DNA of 64,000 nt from Dehalococcoidia bacterium. Its GTDB lineage: Bacteria > Chloroflexota > Dehalococcoidia > DSTF01 > WHTK01. Shown here piece after piece: positions 15,044 through 27,531 of the stretch (position 1 is its first letter; each line of letters begins with the position of its first letter). The stretch lies in NCBI GenBank assembly GCA_009377745.1, contig WHTK01000002.1, positions 108,771-172,770 on the forward strand. Direction: 5' to 3'. A program made the position numbers and the translations under genes. Below the pieces are notes generated by a model. It saw nothing but the letters and a program-made list of their open reading frames with translations. It had not been told where the DNA came from and did no database searches.

Positions 15044-16305
15044 ATGACGGCACAACAAAACTACGTAGAGCCAACGGGTAATCAAAAGGCCGGCTTCCAG
15101 AAGGGCGATGGCTTCGTTTACGCCAAGCGGCTGCCCACGGCCTGGGAGACCTTCCAGAAGGAGGAGGGACTACCGGTCTTCGGGGGCGTCGGCTGCAAGG
15201 ATTCTCGTGATCTGCCCCGCGCTGACTGGGCCCGGGTTGGCGGGAAGGGCACCTTTATTCAGCTAATTAACACGAGTACCCAGACGGGCATGTTCGTCGT
15301 CGAAGTGCCGGCCCGTGGCGCCCTCAAGCCTCAGAAGCACATGTAGAGGAACGCTACATCGTGCTGGACGGCCGGGGTAGCGTAGAAGTGTGGAAGAACG
15401 GCAGCGATGCCAGGAGTTCCTTCGAGTACCAGCAGTGGAGCGTCTTCTCCGTGCCGGTGAACGCCAACTTCCGCATCATCAACTCATCCTCATCTCCGGC
15501 CTTGCTCCTGGGTGTCAACTCTGCGCCGAAGGTCAACATGTACCAGAGCAAGTCCTTCGTCTTCGACAACAACTTCGATTTCGAGAACCGCTTTGGCGGC
15601 AACCTGGAGGACTACTGGAAGCCGGGCGAGGACTTCGAGCCGCAGCCGGTGCGCGGTCGCGCCATGATCACGACCAACCTGATCCCGGATGCGGCGACTA
15701 CCTACCTGCCGCTCGACAACAACCGCGGCCCCGGCCACCGCTGGCTCGCCCCGAACATGGTCGGCAATACCATGCTCCAGGGCTGGATCGCCGAGTACCC
15801 CAGCGGCCGTTATGCGAAAGCCCACTATGCCCACGGCGGCGGCGCCGTCCTGGTCTGCATGCGCGGCAGTGGCTACACCATCGCCTGGCCCAAGGATATT
15901 GCCGGGGTTAATCCCTGGAAGGATGGCTACGCGGATCTGGTCAAGATGACAGAGTACGGTCCCGGAGGCATGGTCTCGGCCGTGCCGGGCCCCTCCAATT
16001 GGTTCCACCAGCACTTCGCCTACAGCAAAGAGCCGTTCCGAGTTTTCAACTACACCGGCAGTGTCCCCGGGAACGAGAACGCTTTCGGCGGCGTCGATGG
16101 CGAAGACCCGGGCCAGGGTGGAGAGCAAGTCCAGGCCTCACTCACCGACATAGACAAAGGCGGTCGCGCCATCCCTTACTACATGGAGGACCCCCACATC
16201 CGCGAGTACTTCACTGCGAGGCTGAAGGAAATGGGCGCCGATTTCACGATGCCCGAAGAGGTTTACACGAAGGAAGGTTCCAACATCAAGGTAATGTCGG
16301 ACTAA
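15044..16305 (+). CDS. bicupin-domain protein A, frameshifted
   Basis: About 420 residues once a missing base near 15345 is restored: KPQKHMY is followed by a stop, while the paralogue reads KPQRHMYEERY. The first cupin carries HMYEERY and VLDGRGSVEVW. The second carries AKAHYAHGGGAVLVCMRGSG and WFHQHF, supplying His ligands typical of cupin metal sites. The layout recalls gentisate 1,2-dioxygenase-like bicupins, but the sequence is not that enzyme and the substrate is unknown. The protein has no signal peptide, so it is cytoplasmic. Proteins B (16439) and C (right edge) are close paralogues. The gene follows the substrate-binding protein and precedes B. Confidence 0.8.
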
Positions 16306-16438
16306 GGACTAGCACCGTGGTGGAGCAAGAGAAGGGGGTCGGGGCGTCCTCCTCTTTTGGGTCCAGAGTGGAGCGCATCGGGACAAATGCCTTGGCCGTA
16401 TGCACCGCCCCGGACCAAGCCAAAGATGGAGGAGTCAA

Positions 16439-17696
16439 ATGGCAAACAAAGAGCGTTACATAGAGCCCACAGGACAACAGAAGGCCGGCTGGCACAAGGG
16501 CGACGACATGGGCAGCTTCACCCGGCGCCTGCCCACCGCCTGGGAGATGTTCCTTAAGGAGGAGGGCTTGCCGGTGTTCAAGGGCGTCGGCATTCGGGAC
16601 TCACGAGAGTTGCCGCGGGCCGACTGGGCGCGTGTCGGTGGTAAGGGCAGTTACATCCAGCTACTTGGCACCAACAACGCGACAGGCATGTTCATCGTCG
16701 AAGTGCCGGGGCGCGGCGCGCTCAAGCCGCAGCGCCACATGTATGAGGAGCGCTACCTGGTCCTGGAAGGCCGGGGCAGCACCGAAGTCTGGCGTACCAA
16801 CGGCGGCGCGAAGTCCACGTTCGAGTGGCAGCCCTGGAGCTGCTTCTCAATACCGCTCAACGCGAACTTCCAGATCATCAATGCTTCGTCCGGCCCGGCC
16901 ATCCTGCTCGGCGTCAACACGGCGCCGCGTGCGATCAACGTCTATCAGCACCCGAGGTTCATCTTCGCTAACGACTTCGAATTCGAAAATCGCTTCGGTG
17001 GCGATCTGGAGGAGTATTGGAAGCCGGGTGAGGAGTTCGAGCCACAGCCAGTCCGGGGCCGTGCCATGATCTCGACCAACCTGATACCGGACGCCTCGAT
17101 GACCTATCTGCCGCTGGACAACAACCGTGGCCCCGGACATCGTTGGGTGGCGCCCAACATGGCCGGCAACACGGAGATTCAGGGTTGGATCGCCGAATAC
17201 CCCCAGCGGGCGTTACGCCAAAGCCCATGCTCACGGTGCTGGCGCCGTCCTCGTCTGCATGCGCGGCAAGGGTTACTCAATCACCTGGCCGCGCGACATC
17301 GGCGGTCTAACGCCCTGGGCGGACGGCAAGGGCGACTGCGTCAAGCTGCAGGAGTATGAGCCGGGCGGCATGATCAGTGCTGCGCCTGGCCCCTCCAACT
17401 GGTTCCACCAGCACTTTGCCTACGGCAAGGACCCGTTCCGCATCTTCCTCTTTACGGGCGGAGTGCCCGGCAACCCGACTTCGGGCGGCAATCGCGGCGA
17501 CACGGTCGAAGCCGGCGATTATGTACCACAGCACCGTGAGATCACCGAGGGCGGCAACGCTATCCCGTACCACATGCAGGACCCCTGGGTCCGCAAGCAC
17601 TTCGAGGAGAAGCTGGCAGACGAAGGGGCGGTTAGCACCATGCCGGACGAGGTCTACACGGCTGCCGGCAGCAAAGTCCGCATCATGGAAGACTAG
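16439..17696 (+). CDS. bicupin-domain protein B, frameshifted
   Basis: About 418 residues. The ATG at 16439 follows GGAGGAG. It opens like A, with YIEPTGQQKAGWHKGD and FTRRLPTAWEMFLKEEGLPV. Cupin 1 has LKPQRHMYEERYLVLEGRG and cupin 2 has YAKAHAHGAGAVLVCMRG and WFHQHFAYG. One extra C in a run of five near 17203 shifts the frame between WIAEYP and SGRYAKAH. A and B are about two-thirds identical by eye, so they are an old tandem duplication. Conserved His in both domains suggest two metal sites or one site plus a structural domain. Any oxygenase activity is inferred from the fold. Confidence 0.8.
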
Positions 17697-17806: not shown

Positions 17807-17893
17807 TGGTGCCGGGAGTGGGGATCGAACCCACAAGACCTCGCGGCCGGCAGATTTTAAGTCTGCTGCGTTTGCCAGTTTCGCCATCCCGGC
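17807..17893 (-). tRNA. tRNA-Leu (anticodon TAA)
   Basis: On the minus strand the acceptor GCCGGGA pairs with TCCCGGC, followed by A and an encoded CCA. The anticodon arm is GCAGA-CTTAAAA-TCTGC, giving anticodon TAA. A long variable arm (CGGCCGCGAGGTCTT region) marks a class II tRNA, and the T arm is GTGGG-TTCGATC-CCCAC. All stems pair, so this is a working tRNA-Leu. A degenerate copy lies at 5962-6040. Confidence 0.92.
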
Positions 17894-19046: not shown

Positions 19047-19208
19047 TCTCTTCGCGGTGGAGAACGGCCTCCTAAGCTAGAACACGTTCAACCAGACGCG
19101 CGCATTCACGGCAATTTCGAGACCTCGGAGGCTGCGATCAAGACGTTCGTCCGCGGGACGATAGAGAACTCAGGGCAGGGAATAAGACCCATGGAAGGTT
19201 TGCGGGAT

Positions 19209-19364
19209 GCGAGAATCCCCTGTCTCGGGGACAGAACGCAGCGACCTGCCTTGAGTCGAAAGGCGGTTTTGCGGTTTGAGACTAACTCCCGCGGTTTGAG
19301 ACCAACCCCGACATCCTTGCTTCCAAGTAGGCTGTCGCGGGTTCGAGTCCCGTCCCCCGCTCCA
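19209..19364 (+). repeat. repeat copy A ending in a tRNA-Gly(TCC) 3' half
   Basis: About 155 bases, matching copy B at 22149-22307. A 48-base block (19261-19308) is identical in both. The final 50 bases, from CTTGCTTCCAAG through GCGGGTTCGAGTCCCGT to CCCCCGCTCCA, are an anticodon arm, T arm and acceptor 3' strand with T73 and CCA, as in tRNA-Gly(TCC). No 5' half is present. Repeated tRNA 3' halves are the usual footprint of site-specific integration. Confidence 0.7.
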
Positions 19365-19492
19365 ATCCCCTTTTTCGAACCTGAACCTCTGTAAATCTCG
19401 CCTTGGCTCGAGGGCCGCCCAGATTTCGTAGAGCCCCATGGACCCGGGCGGGCAACGGTCAAGGCCCTCCCGGAGCGCTTAACAGTTATGAC

Positions 19493-19531
19493 TTGACAGG
19501 ATCACCCCCCCCCCGAGACTGCTGCTATGCA
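19493..19531 (+). promoter_or_regulatory. TTGACA with poly-C tract upstream of the secretion cassette
   Basis: A perfect -35-like TTGACA (19493-19498) is followed by a run of ten C (19505-19514) and a TATGCA (19526-19531). The spacing of 27 is too long for a normal promoter, and the C-run lies exactly in the spacer. It may be a promoter whose spacing varies by slippage, or a coincidence. Confidence 0.3.
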
Positions 19532-19581
19532 GACGCCCGAGATGCGGCGTCACAGCAGCCAGGAATTGGCAGGAATAACGC

Positions 19582-19617
19582 AAGGAGGCGATCCCACGAA
19601 TCGCCTCCTTTCCTTTT
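19582..19617 (+). terminator. intrinsic terminator or leader hairpin before the secretion cassette
   Basis: AAGGAGGCGAT, loop CCCACGA, ATCGCCTCCTT, then TCCTTTT: an 11-bp perfect stem with a T-rich tail. It lies 36 bases before the first exported-protein gene. It either ends upstream transcription or acts as a leader attenuator. The stem also buries an AGGAGG. Confidence 0.7.
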
Positions 19618-19652
19618 GGAGGTGAGATAGAGAGCAGTTTTTGGAGGTCTCT

Positions 19653-20067
19653 ATGCTGCGTAAAGTGCTTTTTGCCCTCGTTATCGGCGGTGTCGTGTCC
19701 AGCGCAGTCTATGGTTTGGCCGCGACTCTGGACCTTGTGTCTGATGACCTGGGTTCCGGAGACGACGTGGTAGCGTCCTGCGACACAGACGGTGTGGGGG
19801 CCACCTACACGGTGGCCTATTCGGCCAGCCCCAGGTCCCGGCTATATAGTCACCGAAGTCGTCGTGGATGGCATCGACGCCACGAACTGCGACGGACAGG
19901 ACGCGTATGTCACCCTTACGGGGCCGACCGCTGGCGCGGAGCTAGTAAGCGCTGGTCCCATCGTCATCGCTGGGGCCACCGTAACGGTGCCGATTACGAC
20001 TCCTGTCCTGGCATCGGCTGTTATCGATGTGCACGTCGCGATCACCGGCGACGACCCGTCTCCGTAA
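19653..20067 (+). CDS. small exported protein 1 (SipW-substrate-like), frameshifted
   Basis: About 137 residues from the ATG at 19653 (GGAGG six bases upstream). An N-terminal signal segment (LRKVLFALVIGGVVSSAVYG) precedes a beta-rich body with two Cys (ASCDTDG and TNCDGQD). It ends VDVHVAITGDDPSP in the second frame. One extra base near 19835 changes the frame between YTVAYSAS and GPGYIVTEVVVDGI. The body aligns end to end with protein 2 (20152-20544), so the two are paralogues. The short signal followed by a beta-sandwich-like domain resembles TasA/CalY-type substrates of SipW signal peptidases; that identity is inferred. Confidence 0.65.
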
Positions 20068-20151
20068 CCTCCGCAGTGACCTTTGGCACCAGATTCGAGT
20101 CTCAGCGAAGTCCCACTCCAGCCGTGCGACTCTCTGCAAGGACTCTAGAAT

Positions 20152-20544
20152 ATGCTCAGGGTCCTCCTGGCGTTAACCACGGGAAGCGCGGTCTTCGCGG
20201 TGGTCTACGCACAGGCGGCCGGCCTTGGCGTGGCGTCCGCGAGTCTGGCTGCCGGCGATGCTTCGGTCTTAGCCTGCGACCAGGACGGCGTAAGCATCAC
20301 GTATGCCGTGGTCTTCGACAGTGGGCCCGATAACCGCTGGGAGGTTACCAGCGTGACCGTGGGTGGCATTAGCGCCGCCTGCAATGGGGGCCTGCTCTAC
20401 ATGGTCGCGGTAAACGGGTCCGGAACGGCGCTGGCGAGCGCTGGTCCAGTGACGGTCAGCGCCACCTCTGCGGTTGTTGACCTGACGCCAGATCCGCCTG
20501 CCGCAGCGCTGACCGGCGTGCATCTCGTCATAGTTGGGCCGTAG
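20152..20544 (+). CDS. small exported protein 2, paralogue of protein 1
   Basis: 130 residues, intact. The signal segment LRVLLALTTGSAVFAVVYAQ is followed by a beta-rich domain: ASVLACDQDGVSITYAVVFD, WEVTSVTVGGISAACNGG and LTGVHLVIVGP. The Cys pair matches that of protein 1 and could form a disulfide outside the cell. No ribosome binding site stands out before the ATG. I do not recognise a named domain. The small size, export signal and neighbouring dedicated signal peptidase suggest a fibre or matrix subunit, which is inference. Confidence 0.7.
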   Translation: MLRVLLALTTGSAVFAVVYAQAAGLGVASASLAAGDASVLACDQDGVSITYAVVFDSGPDNRWEVTSVTVGGISAACNGGLLYMVAVNGSGTALASAGPVTVSATSAVVDLTPDPPAAALTGVHLVIVGP

Positions 20545-20562
20545 GACCGAGCGGCTTGACGC

Positions 20563-21339
20563 GTGAGTGTGTGGCGCGTCCTCAGCTTGGTCATCCTGGG
20601 CACCGTAGTTGCCGGCACCGTCGGCTGGGCGGCGAGCCTGGGTGTGGACAGCCGTCGCCTTACGACTTTCACAGTCGAGCAGACCGTTCCTGTCCCGACG
20701 AACACGCCCACTCCAACCAGCACTCCTACCCCAACTCCTACTCCGACCGCAACGAACACGCCGACACCCACGCCGACCAACACTCCGACTCCCTCGCCTA
20801 CACCAACCGCGACTAGCACGCCAACCCCAACGGCGACGCCGAGGCCGCCATACATTCTGCGCAGCACAATTTTGAGCGCCTGTACACCGGCTGGTACCGT
20901 CGGCGGTGTCGGCAATGACTTGCGACCAACGAGTGGCACCTCGGCAAACATTGTCCGATCTGGTCCTGCAAATACGCAGAATGCTATCTACTTCGCATTT
21001 ACTACGCTCGCCGCAGACCCCAACCTGAGCACCTGGAATTCTGGTAACTACGTTGTCCAGCTCAATGTTACTGCCCGGAACAGCCAGGCCCTTGATTATC
21101 AGATTGAGGTCCTGCGCGTTGCCGCCAACTGCACTGTTGTTGCAAGCCTGGGACAATCGGGTGAGCAAACGGGCACTGGACTGAAGACGTTCACCATACC
21201 GGTTGCGACTTCAACAGGCAGCCCAACCGACCGAGTCCAGATTCGAGTCCTGGTTGATACCGGTGGAGGCTCCGCCACGGCGCGTCAGCTCGGCCTCCAA
21301 CTCAATACGTCGAATTCGAGGTTAACCGTCCCTTGGTAA
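20563..21339 (+). CDS. exported protein 3 with Thr-Pro stalk
   Basis: 258 residues from a GTG. The signal-like segment (VLSLVILGTVVAGTVGWAAS) is followed by LGVDSRRL, echoing the start of proteins 1 and 2. Residues about 45-95 are almost pure Thr-Pro repeats (TNTPTPT, STPTPTPTPT), a rigid extended stalk. The C-terminal 160 residues form a beta-rich domain with two Cys (LSACTPAG, AANCTVVAS) and end in LNTSNSRLTVPW. No LPXTG or second membrane segment is seen. It may carry a domain away from the cell surface. The opposite-strand frame of the stalk gives a GVGVG-rich ORF that is an artefact. Confidence 0.7.
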   Translation: MSVWRVLSLVILGTVVAGTVGWAASLGVDSRRLTTFTVEQTVPVPTNTPTPTSTPTPTPTPTATNTPTPTPTNTPTPSPTPTATSTPTPTATPRPPYILRSTILSACTPAGTVGGVGNDLRPTSGTSANIVRSGPANTQNAIYFAFTTLAADPNLSTWNSGNYVVQLNVTARNSQALDYQIEVLRVAANCTVVASLGQSGEQTGTGLKTFTIPVATSTGSPTDRVQIRVLVDTGGGSATARQLGLQLNTSNSRLTVPW

Positions 21340-21353
21340 GGCGGGGCTTCCGG

Positions 21354-21863
21354 ATGCATCTCCAAGGAGTTAGACGGCAGGTTCTGTCTCTGGAGTTCAG
21401 GCATGTTTGGATTCTGGCCTGTATCATCTTTGCCATCCTCTGGTTATTCATGTTAAGACCCCAGTTCCTTGGTGGCCCCGCGTCTTACATCACAGTGCGC
21501 GGCAGTAGCATGGAACCTGCGCTTAGCAGCGGCGACCTCGCTGTTCTTCGGGCTAAAAGTACCTACGGCCTCGGCGACACGATCGGCTTTCGCATACCTC
21601 AGGGGGAGGTGGGTGCAGGACTTGTGGTCATTCATCGTGTCGTGGGCGGTCCCGGCGACGCCGGATACATCACCAGAGGTGACAATCGCGCCGAGATCGA
21701 CATGTGGCAGCCGCGGCACGAAGACGTTCTCGGAGAGGTATGGATACACGTTCCAAAGGGCGGCCGCGTGCTCGAGGCAATGCGAAAGCCACCGGTATTG
21801 GCCGGCCTTGCAGGGGTACTCGCGGCCGTAATGGTGCTGACCACAGGAAGGCGACGGAGGTGA
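21354..21863 (+). CDS. SipW/ER-type signal peptidase I
   Basis: About 169 residues. A membrane segment (VWILACIIFAILWLFML) leads to the catalytic Ser motif RGSSMEPALSSGD. The second motif is VVIHRVVGG, with His in place of the usual Lys, and the third is YITRGDNRAEID. Ser-His-Asp is the catalytic set of the archaeal, eukaryotic and Bacillus SipW branch, not of ordinary bacterial LepB. A C-terminal membrane segment (LAGLAGVLAAVMVL) precedes a basic tail. SipW enzymes process a few dedicated substrates, which suits the three exported proteins upstream. An alternative TTG start at 21333 overlaps the preceding stop. Confidence 0.85.
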   Translation: MHLQGVRRQVLSLEFRHVWILACIIFAILWLFMLRPQFLGGPASYITVRGSSMEPALSSGDLAVLRAKSTYGLGDTIGFRIPQGEVGAGLVVIHRVVGGPGDAGYITRGDNRAEIDMWQPRHEDVLGEVWIHVPKGGRVLEAMRKPPVLAGLAGVLAAVMVLTTGRRRR

Positions 21864-21887
21864 CGCATAACGGACGTCCCTTATGCG
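21864..21887 (+). terminator. hairpin at the end of the secretion cassette
   Basis: CGCATAA, loop CGGACGTCCC, TTATGCG directly after the signal peptidase stop codon. The loop itself can pair (GGAC/GTCC). There is no T-run. The following 250 bases up to repeat copy B show no gene. Confidence 0.45.
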
Positions 21888-22148
21888 CATCGCTCGGCGG
21901 GTATGGCCGGCGCTCTAATGGGCGTAGCAGCAAGCGCGCTCGCGTGATCAACGACCACACGACACCCTATCATCTGGGACATCTATAGCACGGTGTCGTC
22001 TCAATCCGTCTGGGCGCAGTCTATTAACCGAGAGAACGGTTCTGCTGACCAGAAACGCTGGATGCGTCGAGAGATTTCATGCCCTTTGTCTACCAGACAA
22101 TGGCCAGGTTTCGGATCTCAACCAAATTCGACCTAAACTCGGAAGTGC

Positions 22149-22307
22149 TAGAATTCCGCTGTCCCGGGGACAAAACCCCCGGCAAGCTGCCTGAAGTTCG
22201 AGAAGGCGGTTTTGCGGTTTGAGACTAACTCCCGCGGTTTGAGACCAACCCGCGACAGCCTGCTTGGAAGCAAGGTTGTCGCGGGTTCGAGTCCCGTCCC
22301 CGCCCCA
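22149..22307 (+). repeat. repeat copy B with flipped anticodon-arm segment
   Basis: Matches copy A, including the identical 48-base block at 22204-22251, and ends in the same T arm (GCGGGTTCGAGTCCCGT) and CCCCGCCCCA. The 19 bases between CGACA and TGTCG (22258-22276) are the reverse complement of those in copy A with two mismatches. The anticodon triplet therefore reads TGG instead of TCC. The two copies face the same way and enclose the secretion cassette. Confidence 0.65.
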
Positions 22308-22549
22308 GATTCTTACCTTCCTACTAGAATGTCCTCGACTGGCCGGCACCAGACCGCTCACCGGCGGCACGCTCCACGCATGAGAAGGAGGCGTCGTGAC
22401 TCGGGCAGATGGAACCTCGTATTTTTCTATCGGTATCGTCTTTAGCCTTCCAGCGTAGGCTGAGATCCGGTCCAGGCCATCTGGCGGCCTTCACGGAGCC
22501 GACACAGCTCGCGACCTGCCGGGCCAGTCGAGAATCCTGCCCGGGTAGT

Positions 22550-22585
22550 ATCGTTTCCTCTAGCGATATCGCTGGAGGAAACGAT
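22550..22585. promoter_or_regulatory. 36-bp palindrome covering the ribosome binding site of the next gene
   Basis: ATCGTTTCCTCTAGCGAT is followed directly by ATCGCTGGAGGAAACGAT, an almost perfect dyad (17 of 18). The right arm contains GGAGG and the first two bases of the ATG at 22584. As DNA it could be an operator; as RNA it would bury the ribosome binding site. Confidence 0.75.
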
Positions 22586-22928
22586 GGACGAAATCCTGGG
22601 CATTGCCCGAATCAAGATTCACGAAGGCAAACTCGACGAATATAAGAAGCTCGCAGCCGAGTTTATAGAGCTAGCTCGCACGAAGGACACCGGCACACTC
22701 CAGTACGACTCGTTCTTTAACGACGATTACAGCGAGTGCATCGTAATCGAGAGGTATCGAGATTCGGAATCCCTGCTTCAGCACAGCGCGAACCAGGGCG
22801 ACAGGATGGCTGAGCTTTTAAAGATCTGCACGATATCTGGCGAAGTCTGTGGCTCTCCGAGCCTGGAGCTAAAGAGTGCGCTCGAAAGTTACGGCGTCCC
22901 GGTCTTCAGCCCGTATATGTCACTCTGA
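22584..22928 (+). CDS. antibiotic-biosynthesis-monooxygenase (ABM/YgiN-like) domain protein
   Basis: A 114-residue protein with the ferredoxin-like ABM pattern: LGIARIKIHEGKLDEYKKLA, TLQYDSFFNDDYSECIVIER and YRDSESLLQHSANQGDRMAE. ABM proteins are dimeric; some are quinol monooxygenases and many have no known activity. The start codon lies in the right arm of a 36-bp palindrome. It has no operon partner: the region to 23223 holds only a decayed VOC fragment. Confidence 0.75.
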   Translation: MDEILGIARIKIHEGKLDEYKKLAAEFIELARTKDTGTLQYDSFFNDDYSECIVIERYRDSESLLQHSANQGDRMAELLKICTISGEVCGSPSLELKSALESYGVPVFSPYMSL

Positions 22929-22994
22929 TTCGACCGGTTCGCGTATCAGCGCGGACCAACGCCGTGACCGCCCAGGAGGTTACGATCCCTCGAT

Positions 22995-23090
22995 TGGGAT
23001 CTTGGTCAGAAGGCAATTGACTTCTACACCACTCAGCTCGGCTTCACTGTCTTGAGCATCGAACGATTGATGCGCAAATTGACACGTTCC
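22995..23090 (+). pseudogene. remnant of a glyoxalase/VOC protein
   Basis: Within the 295-base gap the plus strand reads DLGQKAIDFYTTQLGFTVLS, the standard first strand-helix of vicinal-oxygen-chelate proteins. No start codon or metal ligands are left, and the frame soon ends. The rest of the gap up to 23223 has no other recognisable content. Confidence 0.45.
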
Positions 23091-23223
23091 CGTAGGCGGT
23101 CGCATTGCGCGTCCGTCACAGCAGTACGGTGAAATGTAGACAGAGGCAAGCTCAACCTTCGGCGGACGCCGGGCAGAGTGGCGAACTACCTCACTCAGTG
23201 TCCCAACGAGAGGAGATAAGAAA

Positions 23224-23817
23224 ATGCAGATCAAGACGCACATGGGTGTAAGCATCGATGGGTTGGTTACGTCGGCGGACGGCTTGGCGGCGTGGGAGTG
23301 GGACCCCGGCTACGACGGCAAGAGTCCCCCTCCCGGTTACTCCGATTTCATGGAGAACGTCGGCGCCGTGGTCATGGGACGCACGACCTTCGAGCAAGGC
23401 CTGCCGGAATGGAAGGACGCCTGGCCATGGGGTGAGCGGCCGATTCGAGTCCTGACGCACCGGCCGTTGCCCGAGGGGGCGCCGGCGACGGTGAAGGCCT
23501 CCTTGGGCGGTCCTAAAGCTGTGGTCGACGAGCTCAAGAAGACCGGCATAACGAATGACGTGCAGCTACTCGGCGGTCCTAAGGCCATACAGTCGTTCAT
23601 CGACGCCGACCTGCTCGACCGTCTAGGTATCGTGGTGCTGCCGGTCCTGCTCGAGTCGGGCATCCCTCTGTTCCCCGTCAAGGCCACGGCCTTCTCGCGC
23701 GAGGTCTGGGACAAGTCATCGCACAAACCGGCAAGGGAAACGGTGCGCACGATGCGACTCGAGTCTCAGAAACAGCTCGAAGGTCGCGCTGTGCACATGG
23801 TCTACGCCTTTACCTAA
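23224..23817 (+). CDS. RibD C-terminal/dihydrofolate reductase-family protein 1
   Basis: 197 residues; AGAGGAGA precedes the ATG. It reads MGVSIDGLVTSADG near the start, FMENVGAVVMGRTTFEQGLP, DVQLLGGPKAIQSFIDADLL and IVVLPVLLESGIPLFP. This is the fold of the RibD reductase domain and of YyaP/YwjB-type proteins. These bind NADPH and reduce unknown small molecules. It is one of three intact relatives within 2.1 kb, each with quite different sequence, so this is accumulation of family members and not recent tandem duplication. Confidence 0.85.
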   Translation: MQIKTHMGVSIDGLVTSADGLAAWEWDPGYDGKSPPPGYSDFMENVGAVVMGRTTFEQGLPEWKDAWPWGERPIRVLTHRPLPEGAPATVKASLGGPKAVVDELKKTGITNDVQLLGGPKAIQSFIDADLLDRLGIVVLPVLLESGIPLFPVKATAFSREVWDKSSHKPARETVRTMRLESQKQLEGRAVHMVYAFT

Positions 23818-23868
23818 CGCTACCGTCGTAGCCGGCTTCGATCATGGCGGACCAGCTACGCGGCGGAG

Positions 23869-24459
23869 CTACCGCACGCCGGGCGGACCGCTGAGCACCG
23901 TCGGGACGTACTCGAGCAGTTGGATTCTGCCGTCGAAAGTCCGGTTGGCAACCATGTCGAGCGCAACATCGGGATAGCCGTCGTAGATCCGCTCCCTACC
24001 GGTGCTCCCGGTGATCACCGGGAAGACGACCACCCGGTAACGGTCCACCAGGCCTGCCTCGAGGAGAGACCTGCACAGCGTGAGGCTGCCGAGGGTGCTC
24101 AAGTTTGTGCCGTTGCGCTTCATCGCTGCCACCGCCTCGGCTGCATCCCCGTTGACCAGCTGGGTATTGGCCCACGACAACGGGGCCTCCAGTGTTGAGG
24201 AAAACACCACCTTGGGCACTCTGGCGAGTTCAGCTATAGACCCGCGCTCTTCCTCCGTGAAGTCCGAGTCTGGTGCGCTGGCGAATCCGTACATCAGCCG
24301 GTAGGTGTTCGCGCCCATCAACAGCGTGTAGTCGCGGTCGGGTCGCTCGTCGAGCCAGGCGAGATATTCCGGGCCCTGGATTCCCCACCACCCGGGCCAG
24401 CCTTCGGCGGACGCGTAGCCGTCAAGTGAGGTAATGAAGTCCACTATCAATTCCGACAT
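23869..24459 (-). CDS. RibD C-terminal/dihydrofolate reductase-family protein 2
   Basis: 196 residues with the family pattern: LIVDFITSLDGYASAEGWPG, YTLLMGANTYRLMYGFA, VPKVVFSSTLEAPLSWANTQ, LSTLGSLTLCRSLLEAGLVD and RVVVFPVITGSTGRERIYDG. The strand-ending SSTL and G-S-L-x-x-x-x-LLEAGLVD pieces are typical. It faces protein 1 tail to tail. The start at 24459 lies 26 bases from a repeat that also stands upstream of protein 3. Confidence 0.85.
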   Translation of the reverse strand: MSELIVDFITSLDGYASAEGWPGWWGIQGPEYLAWLDERPDRDYTLLMGANTYRLMYGFASAPDSDFTEEERGSIAELARVPKVVFSSTLEAPLSWANTQLVNGDAAEAVAAMKRNGTNLSTLGSLTLCRSLLEAGLVDRYRVVVFPVITGSTGRERIYDGYPDVALDMVANRTFDGRIQLLEYVPTVLSGPPGVR

Positions 24460-24484
24460 TGTTTCTTCCCCTTCGGTCTCTAGT

Positions 24485-24700
24485 TGATGTGTCGCCTAAA
24501 TAGTGATCTGTCGTAGTGTGGGTGGGATGGTGGCTGGGGCTTTGGAGATGACGGGTGGGCAGCGGGTTGAGCTGGAGGGGCTTGCTCGTTCGCACACCGC
24601 GCCGGCTCGGGAGGTGCGCCAGGCCAAGGCGTTGTTGTGGGCCGCCGCGGAGGGAACCGCTGCTGGGGGCGCGCAAGAGCCGCGAACCAGGGCTCCATGA
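24485..24700 (+). mobile_element. IS630-type transposase remnant with terminal repeat
   Basis: GATGTGTCGCCTAAATAGTGATC (24485-24507; 23 bases, given here as positions with its core TAAATAGTGATC) is followed 43 bases later by an ATG-led frame. That frame reads MTGGQRVELEGLARSHTAPA, then REVRQAKALLWAAAEGTA, the first helix-turn-helix of IS630-family transposases. The frame then runs into unrelated sequence and stops, so about 85% of the transposase is missing. A second copy of the terminal repeat is at 25323-25345. Confidence 0.6.
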
Positions 24701-24731
24701 TGCGGCCGGCTCGGGCTAGCAAGCCCGGTGG

Positions 24732-25289
<558 letters not shown>

Positions 25290-25322
25290 TTCGCAAGAGT
25301 ACCACCGATGGGGTACACCGGC

Positions 25323-25345
25323 GATGTGTCGCTTAAATAGTGATC
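25323..25345 (+). repeat. second copy of the IS630-type terminal repeat
   Basis: Differs from the copy at 24485-24507 at one position and has the same orientation. On its right-hand side it abruptly cuts the start of an NTF2-like gene. No transposase sequence adjoins this copy. Confidence 0.6.
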
Positions 25346-25387
25346 GGCGGCGTTAAACTGGTCAATGACGGCCGCGGTGTCGGACAT
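25346..25387 (-). pseudogene. N-terminal stub of an NTF2-like gene cut at the repeat
   Basis: The minus strand reads MSDTAAVIDQFNAA and then enters the repeat at 25345. This opening is typical of NTF2/SnoaL-like proteins. Nothing of the remaining 100 or more residues is seen on either side. Confidence 0.4.
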
Positions 25388-25450
25388 GGCCACATCGTCG
25401 AGCCTCGCAGCAACTCCAAGACGGAATAGCTACCGTGCCTAGTCAGGCGT

Positions 25451-25605
25451 CTACGTTGCGTACTGCGGGCGCCCGGTGGGCCAGTAGACCTGGATCGTCA
25501 CACCGCTCGGGTGGCCCGCGATTCGACCAGTTCGAGCGCGCTGTCCCGGGCCGGTGTCAGGAAACAGCCGCGTCCCGTAAGGCCGGATCGTAGTCTCACC
25601 GCCTG
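25451..25605 (-). pseudogene. decayed C-terminus of a fourth RibD/DHFR-family gene
   Basis: Reading across three frames gives YGTRLFPDTGP, then ALELVESRATR, then SGVTIQVYWPTGRPQYAT and a stop. The order G.RLFPDTGP, LELVESR, GVTIQVYRP is the standard C-terminus of this family. At least two frame changes show it is dead. Confidence 0.55.
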
Positions 25606-25620
25606 AAGAATCTGGACCAG

Positions 25621-26172
25621 TTAGGCCGAGGGAAGCCAATTCATTACCCGTTCAGCCCGACTATGCACCGGGCCGACTAGGTCCAGGATCGCAACATCAC
25701 CACAAAAGCCAAATCGGTCATCAAGGATGATCTCGCGGAGCACGTCGTCGACAGCAGATCTAAGATCCTGATAGGCAGCCCGAGGGATGAGAGCGTCTGC
25801 TTCCGGGGTGACGGGGATGAACACCAGCAAATCAAGGCTTCCTATGGCGCGCCTTATCGTAGGCTGCCAACGATCCAAATCGAACGAATCAATCTCAGAC
25901 AGCGCAAATAAGTATCCCAGGTAATCGAGTGGGCACCGATCGAAGATGACATTTTGTTGCCTTCTTCGCAATGCTTTGAGTTCATGTCGGAAGAGAAGTT
26001 TAAATTCATCAACACTTGGCGGTGTTGAGAACTCGTAACCAGCATCATCCAATACGTAATACGACTCTTCAACGATCTGATGATGAGGAAGTCGCAAGCT
26101 AAGAGTTTCGACCAACGTCGACTTCCCTACGCCATGAGTGCCCGAGACCGCAATGCGCAATGTTCTCTCCAA
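25621..26172 (-). CDS. P-loop ATPase/kinase, NadR-like AAA
   Basis: 183 residues. It begins with a Walker A, IAVSGTHGVGKSTLVETL, followed by a regulatory-looking segment (HQIVEESYYVLDDAGYEFST). A Walker B-like NVIFDRCPLDYLGYLFAL comes next, then a lid region (AYQDLRSAVDDVLREIILDD). This arrangement resembles the nucleoside-kinase-like AAA proteins related to the NadR kinase domain. A phosphorylated substrate is expected but unknown. Codon use and AT content are slightly different from the neighbours (several AAT/ATC and TTT codons), and the gene lies beside IS remnants, which hints at transfer. Confidence 0.75.
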   Translation of the reverse strand: MERTLRIAVSGTHGVGKSTLVETLSLRLPHHQIVEESYYVLDDAGYEFSTPPSVDEFKLLFRHELKALRRRQQNVIFDRCPLDYLGYLFALSEIDSFDLDRWQPTIRRAIGSLDLLVFIPVTPEADALIPRAAYQDLRSAVDDVLREIILDDRFGFCGDVAILDLVGPVHSRAERVMNWLPSA

Positions 26173-26277
26173 GCCTGTCGGCGACTTGTCCTAAGAGCCG
26201 GTCGCCAGCACTTAGTTTATCTCGTTGGTACGCTGCTCACTGTATTGGTTCGTAGTAAGGTGCAGTCATCGTCGGTC

Positions 26278-26784
26278 TCAACCGGCCTCGGCAGGATCCT
26301 CGGCCAGGATCGCGTCGATCTGGCCGACGGCCTGAGTCAGACCTTCCTCCATGCCCATGGCAGCGAGCTGCTCCATGGCTTCGACGCTCGGAAACTCGCT
26401 CTCAATCGACATCCGCGTCTTCCCGCCGCCGATGTCCTGGATCGTCACCTGCACGGTCGTCATCGGGAGCTCCGCGTTCGGCGTGCCGTCCTCGTTGGTG
26501 AAGCCATCGCGGAAGACCAGCCGATAGGGTGGCTGGACCACGTCCACGTTCCAGTACCCGCGTGGCTGGTCGCCCTCCGGGCCGGTCATGTGGTACTGGA
26601 CTTGGCCGCCAGGGCGCAGGTCATGAGTATCGACCGTCGCTGGGTAGGTCGGCGGTCCCCACCAGCGCTCGAGCTGTCGCGGATCGCCCCACAACTGCCA
26701 GACGCGCTCTGGCGAGGCGTGGAACTCGGCATCCAGCGTCATCGTGCGCGACTGAGAGTCCTTGCGAATGTCGGTAACGGTCAT
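26278..26784 (-). CDS. SRPBCC (AHSA1-like) protein
   Basis: 168 residues: DAEFHASPERVWQLWGDPRQ, LERWWGPPTYPATVD, LRPGGQVQYHMTGPEGDQPR and a C-terminal helix MEQLAAMGMEEGLTQAVGQI. It is the Activator-of-Hsp90-homology-1-like class of START/SRPBCC ligand-binding proteins. It overlaps the end of the ArsR gene by four bases, so the two are translationally coupled. The partner arrangement parallels the fused protein at 8899-9729. Confidence 0.85.
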   Translation of the reverse strand: MTVTDIRKDSQSRTMTLDAEFHASPERVWQLWGDPRQLERWWGPPTYPATVDTHDLRPGGQVQYHMTGPEGDQPRGYWNVDVVQPPYRLVFRDGFTNEDGTPNAELPMTTVQVTIQDIGGGKTRMSIESEFPSVEAMEQLAAMGMEEGLTQAVGQIDAILAEDPAEAG

Positions 26785-27119
26785 CGGTCTGCCTCCTTTG
26801 GCGATTCGTTAATGAGCTGGTTCATACGTTCGACGCGCTCGCGCCACAGCTCCTCGTATCGGTCGAGCAGACGGCGCGCCACGCGGAGCCCCTCTAGGTT
26901 AGTGCGGACGACCTTCCTCCGCCCCATGCGATGCTTGCTGACCAGGCCGGCCCGCTCGAGGATGGCGATGTGCTTCTGTACGGCTGCGAAGCTCATCAAG
27001 TAGTGCTCGGTGAGCTCCGCCACCCCTTCCTCGCCCTCGATCGCCCGGCGCACGATGTCTCGCCGGGTGGCATCACCCAGTGCCCCGAAGATGCGGTCGT
27101 GGTCGAGGACTGTCTGCAT
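26781..27119 (-). CDS. ArsR-family transcriptional regulator
   Basis: About 112 residues from the ATG at 27117-27119: DRIFGALGDATRRDIVRRAI, then ELTEHYLMSFAAVQKHIAIL and RAGLVSKHRMGRRKVVRTN form the winged helix. Longer frames start inside an operator-like dyad at 27123-27140 (one with TTG), so the short form is preferred. It has no metal-binding Cys motif; such ArsR proteins usually pair with SRPBCC genes, as here. Confidence 0.85.
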   Translation of the reverse strand: MQTVLDHDRIFGALGDATRRDIVRRAIEGEEGVAELTEHYLMSFAAVQKHIAILERAGLVSKHRMGRRKVVRTNLEGLRVARRLLDRYEELWRERVERMNQLINESPKEADR

Positions 27120-27122
27120 TGA

Positions 27123-27140
27123 TACAACCATAAAGTTGTA
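27123..27140. promoter_or_regulatory. operator-like dyad upstream of the ArsR/SRPBCC pair
   Basis: TACAAC-CATAAA-GTTGTA is a perfect 6-bp inverted repeat with a 6-base spacer, three bases before the start codon. It has the same geometry but different sequence from the dyad at 9742-9761. Confidence 0.5.
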
Positions 27141-27481
27141 CAATCTGGCTTGTCAACTGGTGGCTAGGACATTTCACGACTAGTGGAGTTCTTCAAATGA
27201 CTAGAAGGCAGTGGCAACCAGCGCCCTGGTCCGCAGCGCCGGCTAAAGGTCGAACGATTGTCGATGCTTAGTGGTCAGGATAAGATGGCGTCGGTCGGGC
27301 CCAATCAGGGCCTTGCTCAACGGCTGAAACAGCCGCTGACGCCCTTATTGCGTGACCATCGGTCAGGTGGAGGCAGGTGGTCTGCCTTCTTGGAAACAGG
27401 TAGCTAAGATCGCTCAGAAGTCTGCCTGAGGGTTATTTTCTGAATCTGATGGGGGCAAAAAGGGGGCCAAATCGGCCACGC

Positions 27482-27531
27482 GCTTGCTTCCAAGCAGGCT
27501 GTCACGAGTTCCAGCCCGTCCCCCCGCTCCA
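27482..27531 (+). repeat. third tRNA-Gly 3'-half remnant (copy C)
   Basis: GCTTGCTTCCAAGCAGGCTG, then a mutated T arm (CACGAGTTCCAGCCCGT) and CCCCCGCTCCA. The anticodon-arm segment has the same orientation as copy A. The T arm no longer pairs well. It lies in the 490-base gap between the ArsR gene and the isochorismatase gene; the rest of that gap shows no gene. A GGGGGCAAAAAGGGGG stretch just upstream resembles sequence often found at attachment sites. Confidence 0.55.

Follow-up and report, generated by a model that had tools for sequence, protein, structure and literature searches.

A secretion operon with its own ER-type signal peptidase lies between tRNA-Gly-derived repeats in a Dehalococcoidia bacterium and is probably carried by a small island without an integrase

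We analyzed a stretch of 64,000 nucleotides (the window), part of contig C38 in the 73-contig, 3.5-Mb genome of a Dehalococcoidia bacterium, where the ~2.8 kb between two repeats ending in a tRNA-Gly 3' half hold four forward-strand genes, for three exported proteins (P1, P2, and P3) and a signal peptidase (SP). P1 (19653..20067) and P2 (20152..20544; 130 amino acids) are small exported paralogues with a pair of cysteines, Cys42 and Cys77 of P2 being invariant in the nine sequences used to model P2. An earlier reading of this DNA made without database searches (the sequence-only reading) had rightly taken the two for Cys-paired paralogues and had missed that the frame of P1 is broken near 19840; its open parts run from 19653 to 19847 and then from 19848 in the next frame, and both match the profile of this protein family (the P family; profile A1, built from P1/P2 relatives) at 2e-15 and 4e-11. 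P3 (20563..21339; 258 amino acids) is an exported protein with the start AASLGVDSRRL, a Thr-Pro stalk, and a C-terminal domain without a family assignment. SP (21355..21863) is a signal peptidase I of the endoplasmic reticulum (ER)/archaeal type, whose start is uncertain, the frame being open from 21333 and the first ATG lying at 21355. The GC content at third codon positions (GC3) of the cassette genes is 0.51-0.76, below the 0.81 +/- 0.066 of this genome's long genes.

The assignment of SP rests on a score of 55.4 bits against the archaeal signal peptidase I model TIGR02228 (curated cut-off, 51.85 bits), a score above the cut-off for PF10502, and relatives in the PDB that are SEC11A/C only. 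SEC11A is the best match, and in the alignment with the human protein the Ser (SSMEP), His (VIHRVV), and Asp (RGDN/RGDNR) positions of SP correspond, giving a Ser-His-Asp rather than a Ser-Lys enzyme. The sequence-only reading had proposed exactly this chemistry and had further placed the enzyme in the SipW/ER type; membership of SipW itself is not supported (18.3 bits against the 190-bit cut-off of the SipW model NF046067). Its impression by eye that the substrates do not resemble TasA agrees with our searches: TasA, camelysin, and SipW-cognate models from Pfam and NCBIfam match none of P1, P2, and P3 at E-values up to 1, nor relatives at E-values up to 0.1. Further Peptidase_S26 genes lie elsewhere in the genome, on contigs C53 and C67.

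The three exported proteins share a mature start, A-x-L-x-[VL]-x-S-x-x-L, immediately after the hydrophobic stretch (ATLDLVSDDL in P1, AGLGVASASL in P2, and ASLGVDSRRL in P3). Scored as A[STG][LMI]x[VLIF]x[STG]xx[LIFV], it occurs in 17 of 29 proteins of the family or of the larger exported class X introduced below, including all three window proteins, and in 1 of 148 other predicted genes, a contrast that is descriptive because the pattern was drawn from the families being scored. An AlphaFold2 model of P2 from nine sequences is a beta-sandwich, as the sequence-only reading had suggested checking, with a predicted local distance difference test (pLDDT) score mostly >90 from about residue 50 and <50 over residues 15-35, which cover the end of the signal and the mature start. 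The single-sequence model of P3 is poor and unusable.

As the sequence-only reading had noted, the repeats lie in the same orientation, copy 1 at 19208..19366 and copy 2 at 22146..22306 (both on the forward strand), and are 85% identical across 157 bp (blastn). Each consists of an arm of ~95 bp followed by the 3' half of tRNA-Gly(TCC), which begins at the anticodon loop and reaches the end of the tRNA. In copy 1 the arm occupies about 19208-19315 and the half 19316-19364; a 45-nt alignment of this half with the intact tRNA-Gly(TCC) of C17 (C17:57133-57207) shows 98% identity. Direct-repeat blocks of 49 nt (100%; 19260/22203) and 29 nt (97%; 19329/22273) are spaced 2943-2944 nt apart, and the window contains a T-arm string and a 37-nt string from the arm exactly two times each, where shuffled sequences lead one to expect 0.10 and 0.00. 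Two features set the window copies apart: an internal tandem duplication (GCGGTTTGAGACNAAC twice) at 19269-19308 and 22212-22251, which other arm copies lack, and, in copy 2, a palindromic anticodon-stem core (22247-22287) that is inverted relative to all other copies in the genome. No RNA family matched the repeats in an Rfam search. ARAGORN finds one intact tRNA in the window, a tRNA-Leu (17807-17893) unrelated to the repeats; no intact tRNA-Gly lies in the window or next to the array, the tRNA-Gly-like matches on C38 in own-genome searches being the two repeats and an armless 3' half (27483..27531, forward strand), which may end a further unit at 22307-27531. We found no integrase within 19208-22306; the single match on C38 lies at C38:210893.

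The arm defines a repeat family with eight members in this genome, spread over five loci (two each on C38, C49, and C15, and one each on C51 and C17), and usually, not always, continues into a tRNA-Gly 3' half that starts at the anticodon loop and is truncated to a varying extent. Copy 1 is 83% identical to the family consensus in the arm and 98% in the half. On three contigs the arms form same-orientation pairs, 2.9 kb (C38), 3.8 kb (C49), and 2.0 kb (C15) apart, and the enclosed cargo differs by locus: the secretion operon on C38; an oxidoreductase-like fragment and an NTF2-like protein (both by eye) with an HD/LuxR regulator on C49; and tetR with a DUF2269-like protein on C15. C49 also carries a degenerate copy of the whole tRNA. 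A tyrosine integrase that is a candidate partner of the arm lies on C17, 137 bp upstream of its intact tRNA-Gly. This integrase and its neighborhood are present twice (L023:6038-6997 and L126, the short contig C11), with proteins 94.7% identical, and C11 ends ~60 bp short of the position corresponding to the tRNA-Gly. Inspection by eye made a left arm shared by the sequences 3' of the halves seem plausible; the similarity between loci is not significant, and the idea was discarded.

We searched 148 genomes of relatives for the arm, SP, and P3. The arm was not found, all matches covering the tRNA part only. Displaced tRNA-Gly 3' halves that begin at or just inside the anticodon do occur, 1.7-8.3 kb downstream of an intact tRNA-Gly, in G001, G006 (two loci), G010, and G143, an anatomy of the Campbell type, as integrase scars should have. 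In G010 and G143 remnants of tyrosine recombinases lie between the intact gene and the displaced half. Inspection by eye of the intervening open frames showed no integrase in G001 and G006, where the segments bounded by halves (L108 2781-6370 in G001; L109 1935-3981 and L110 2106-5595 in G006) measure 2-3.6 kb and carry a large exported protein and an adenylate cyclase/TPR protein. Because these segments hold other cargo, tRNA-Gly is a repeated target in this order. The sister cassette on C15 is absent from seven relatives in which ligA and his are linked: their ligA-his region lacks both cassette genes, the repeats, and any tRNA-Gly half. The interval varies between genera, and the absence is thus supporting, not conclusive, for insertion. 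Of two arm strings scanned against viral contigs, one gave three chance matches in unrelated AT-rich sequence and the other none; a single scan of genome contigs gave one distant, uninformative match.

Relatives of SP occur in 18 of the 148 genomes, and profile A1 finds the P family in 7 of 393 genomes of the class and 13 of 400 genomes of the phylum, 19 distinct genomes in all (this genome is included in each count). The P-family genes are usually two adjacent paralogues, with a relative of SP within about 2 kb in 17 of the 19 genomes; of the remaining two, G289 has its locus cut by a contig end and G585 shows none. G130 (which has an additional P protein, RTX-like), G411, G480, and G466 repeat the order P-P-X-SP, where X stands for a larger exported protein; in this genome P3 fills that slot. 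P3 has no sequence similarity to the X protein of G130. The secretion module is real and conserved, its peptidase and small exported proteins being linked across the phylum, which bears out their pairing in the sequence-only reading. The four-gene order it had proposed to seek in relatives exists; the flanking repeats it expected alongside do not, since none of the 18 P-family loci fetched from other genomes has a tRNA-Gly half or an arm. The operon is therefore independent of the repeats, old and scattered among relatives, and boxed by repeats in this genome only. Of the genomes searched from this family and order, G009 alone carries P-family genes, and this patchiness, together with the low GC3 of the cassette, is consistent with acquisition. 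No SP was found in viral contigs and phages, and matches in plasmids are haloarchaeal signal peptidases only, at 33-35%. At seven loci of other relatives (L044, L045, L046, L048, L049, L058, and L065) a peptidase of the same class stands beside a different set of small exported proteins, with the motif AAxNTVPxSxAGDG..., and beside Gly/Asp repeats of RTX-like character, a hint that one peptidase may serve several substrate families.

We favor the explanation that the secretion operon is cargo of a small integrase-less island, to which we give a probability of about 0.6. The repeat family, its tRNA origin, the same-orientation pairs, the scars in relatives, and the absence of the C15 cassette together make attachment scars the most likely identity of the repeats, and the sequence-only reading of them is probably right in kind. 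The anticodon loop is a classical integrase core. Each repeat would be the right-end attachment site of a tyrosine-recombinase element, composed of element arm, core, and displaced tRNA-Gly 3' half, with the crossover presumably placed in the anticodon stem-loop. Two such sites in tandem would delimit a 2.94-kb unit able to excise or move only through an integrase supplied in trans (perhaps the one on C17), a dependence also proposed for Dehalococcoides ssrA islands without an integration module of their own (PMC3146451). Two stronger claims of the sequence-only reading fall: with no integrase inside, the unit is not self-mobile, and repeats and operon do not travel as one, relatives showing the genes without the repeats, the very finding it had named as speaking against such a unit.

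Several observations weigh against our explanation. A tRNA-targeted element should be flanked by a direct repeat of the tRNA 3' part, have its intact target at one end, and encode an integrase; at 19208-22306 the direct repeat is present, and the intact tRNA and the integrase are absent. No intact tRNA-Gly accompanies the C38 array or the copies on C15, C49, and C51, so that simple insertion into a tRNA fails to explain the present sites at C38, C15, and C51. No integrase is tied to the arm, and the one on C17 sits on the opposite side of its tRNA-Gly. The empty-site comparison concerns the C15 sister cassette rather than the 19208-22306 locus, and repeats that are just 85% identical indicate that the insertion is not fresh. 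As for the operon, the frame of P1 is broken, no relative of P3 was detected among the 148 genomes, and Foldseek returns no significant solved structural relative for the P2 model.

The strongest competitor, which we nonetheless think rather unlikely, is an ordinary dispersed repeat, MITE-like (miniature inverted-repeat transposable element) or bearing a pseudo-tRNA, that landed on either side of a resident operon, so that the bracket is coincidental and the segment immobile. Copies at non-tRNA sites, the single copies at C51 and C17, the variable truncation of the tRNA half, the lack of an internal integrase, and the repeat-free operons of relatives all suit it. It accounts poorly for pairs in one orientation 2-4 kb apart on three contigs, for a tRNA part that begins at the integrase core, for the atypical GC3 of the cassette and the missing sister cassette in relatives, and for their tRNA-Gly-linked elements. 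Somewhat more doubtful is the notion that these are tRNA-Gly-derived recombination sites, evolved from a tRNA-targeting integrase system, that now insert away from tRNA genes in an integron-like manner and pair around unrelated cargo (the secretion operon, tetR with DUF2269, and the HD/LuxR regulator), with the integrase acting in trans.

That SP is a general signal peptidase, a chance neighbor of unrelated exported proteins, is improbable: nothing in SP proves a narrow specificity and the cleavage sites of P1-P3 are ordinary-looking A-x-A, but Peptidase_S26 genes also exist elsewhere in the genome, 17 of the 19 genomes with P-family genes have SP linked to them, and its presence in just 18 of 148 genomes marks it as no housekeeping enzyme. 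Least credible of all is an integron reading, in which the repeats would serve as attC-like sites in a cassette array without its integrase, for although they are same-orientation sites, one per cassette, and the repeat strand folds strongly in three of four copies tested, none of the four has an RYYYAAC or GTTRRRY core site and the 3' end of the repeat is a tRNA half.

For the products of the operon, we propose that P1, P2, and P3 are exported through Sec and would be matured by the co-encoded SP at their shared motif, freeing an N-terminal strand next to a Cys-paired beta-sandwich. The mature proteins would then most likely assemble at the surface or be displayed there, with P3 as their stalked partner. 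The free N-terminal strand that they would share suggests, by analogy only, strand donation as in TasA/TapA. On this hypothesis the mature proteins could form surface oligomers by donor-strand exchange, with P3 as a possible tip or anchor; fibre building by P1-P3 would be plausible on the analogy with TasA.

Two groups of neighboring genes lie outside the repeats. At 15044-17696 two cupin-like paralogues are each split in two frames, a full-length homologue of 410 amino acids being encoded at L024:9744-10976; together with the frameshift in P1, these split frames point to decay or else to indel errors of the assembly. The interval 23224-25289, located between copy 2 and the armless tRNA-Gly half, contains three adjacent small genes that are related to one another and reductase-like (RibD/DHFR-like by eye).

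Our results suggest a plausible way in which a patchy, phylum-wide secretion module, made of small Cys-paired exported proteins with a larger partner and an ER-type signal peptidase of their own, could spread. They also offer testable substrates, from outside Bacillus, for bacterial signal peptidases of the dedicated ER type. In the repeat family one sees how tRNA scars can enclose non-autonomous cargo at positions where a tRNA gene no longer stands.

Among known systems, the tapA-sipW-tasA operon of B. subtilis and camelysin/CalY-SipW of B. cereus likewise place an ER-type signal peptidase beside a few small exported beta-sandwich proteins. TapA and TasA share the sequence of an N-terminal strand, which TasA donates to the next subunit (PMC9674648). 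Unlike in tapA-sipW-tasA, the proteins here have a conserved Cys pair and the gene order P-P-X-SP, and they fall outside the TasA, TapA, camelysin, and SipW-cognate models, just as SP (18 versus 190 bits) falls outside SipW. SP resembles SEC11 and the archaeal signal peptidase I in its aligned Ser, His, and Asp positions and its TIGR02228 score, and differs from them in being bacterial, operon-linked, and patchily distributed. The repeats recall the ssrA islands of Dehalococcoides, tandem units with direct repeats of an RNA-gene 3' end, each following a conserved element motif, some of which lack an integration module and are thought to be cis-mobilizable (PMC3146451). Here the RNA is tRNA-Gly and not transfer-messenger RNA, the arm is ~95 bp, the arrays are not anchored at an intact RNA gene, and the nearby integrases are tyrosine recombinases, whereas ssrA islands use serine recombinases. 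Small variable cargo between repeated tRNA 3' ends is also found in tycheposons and in additive flexible islands, where tRNA-Lys 3' repeats recur (PMC10872708); the family described here differs in its long arm before the tRNA part and in having copies at several sites away from tRNA genes.

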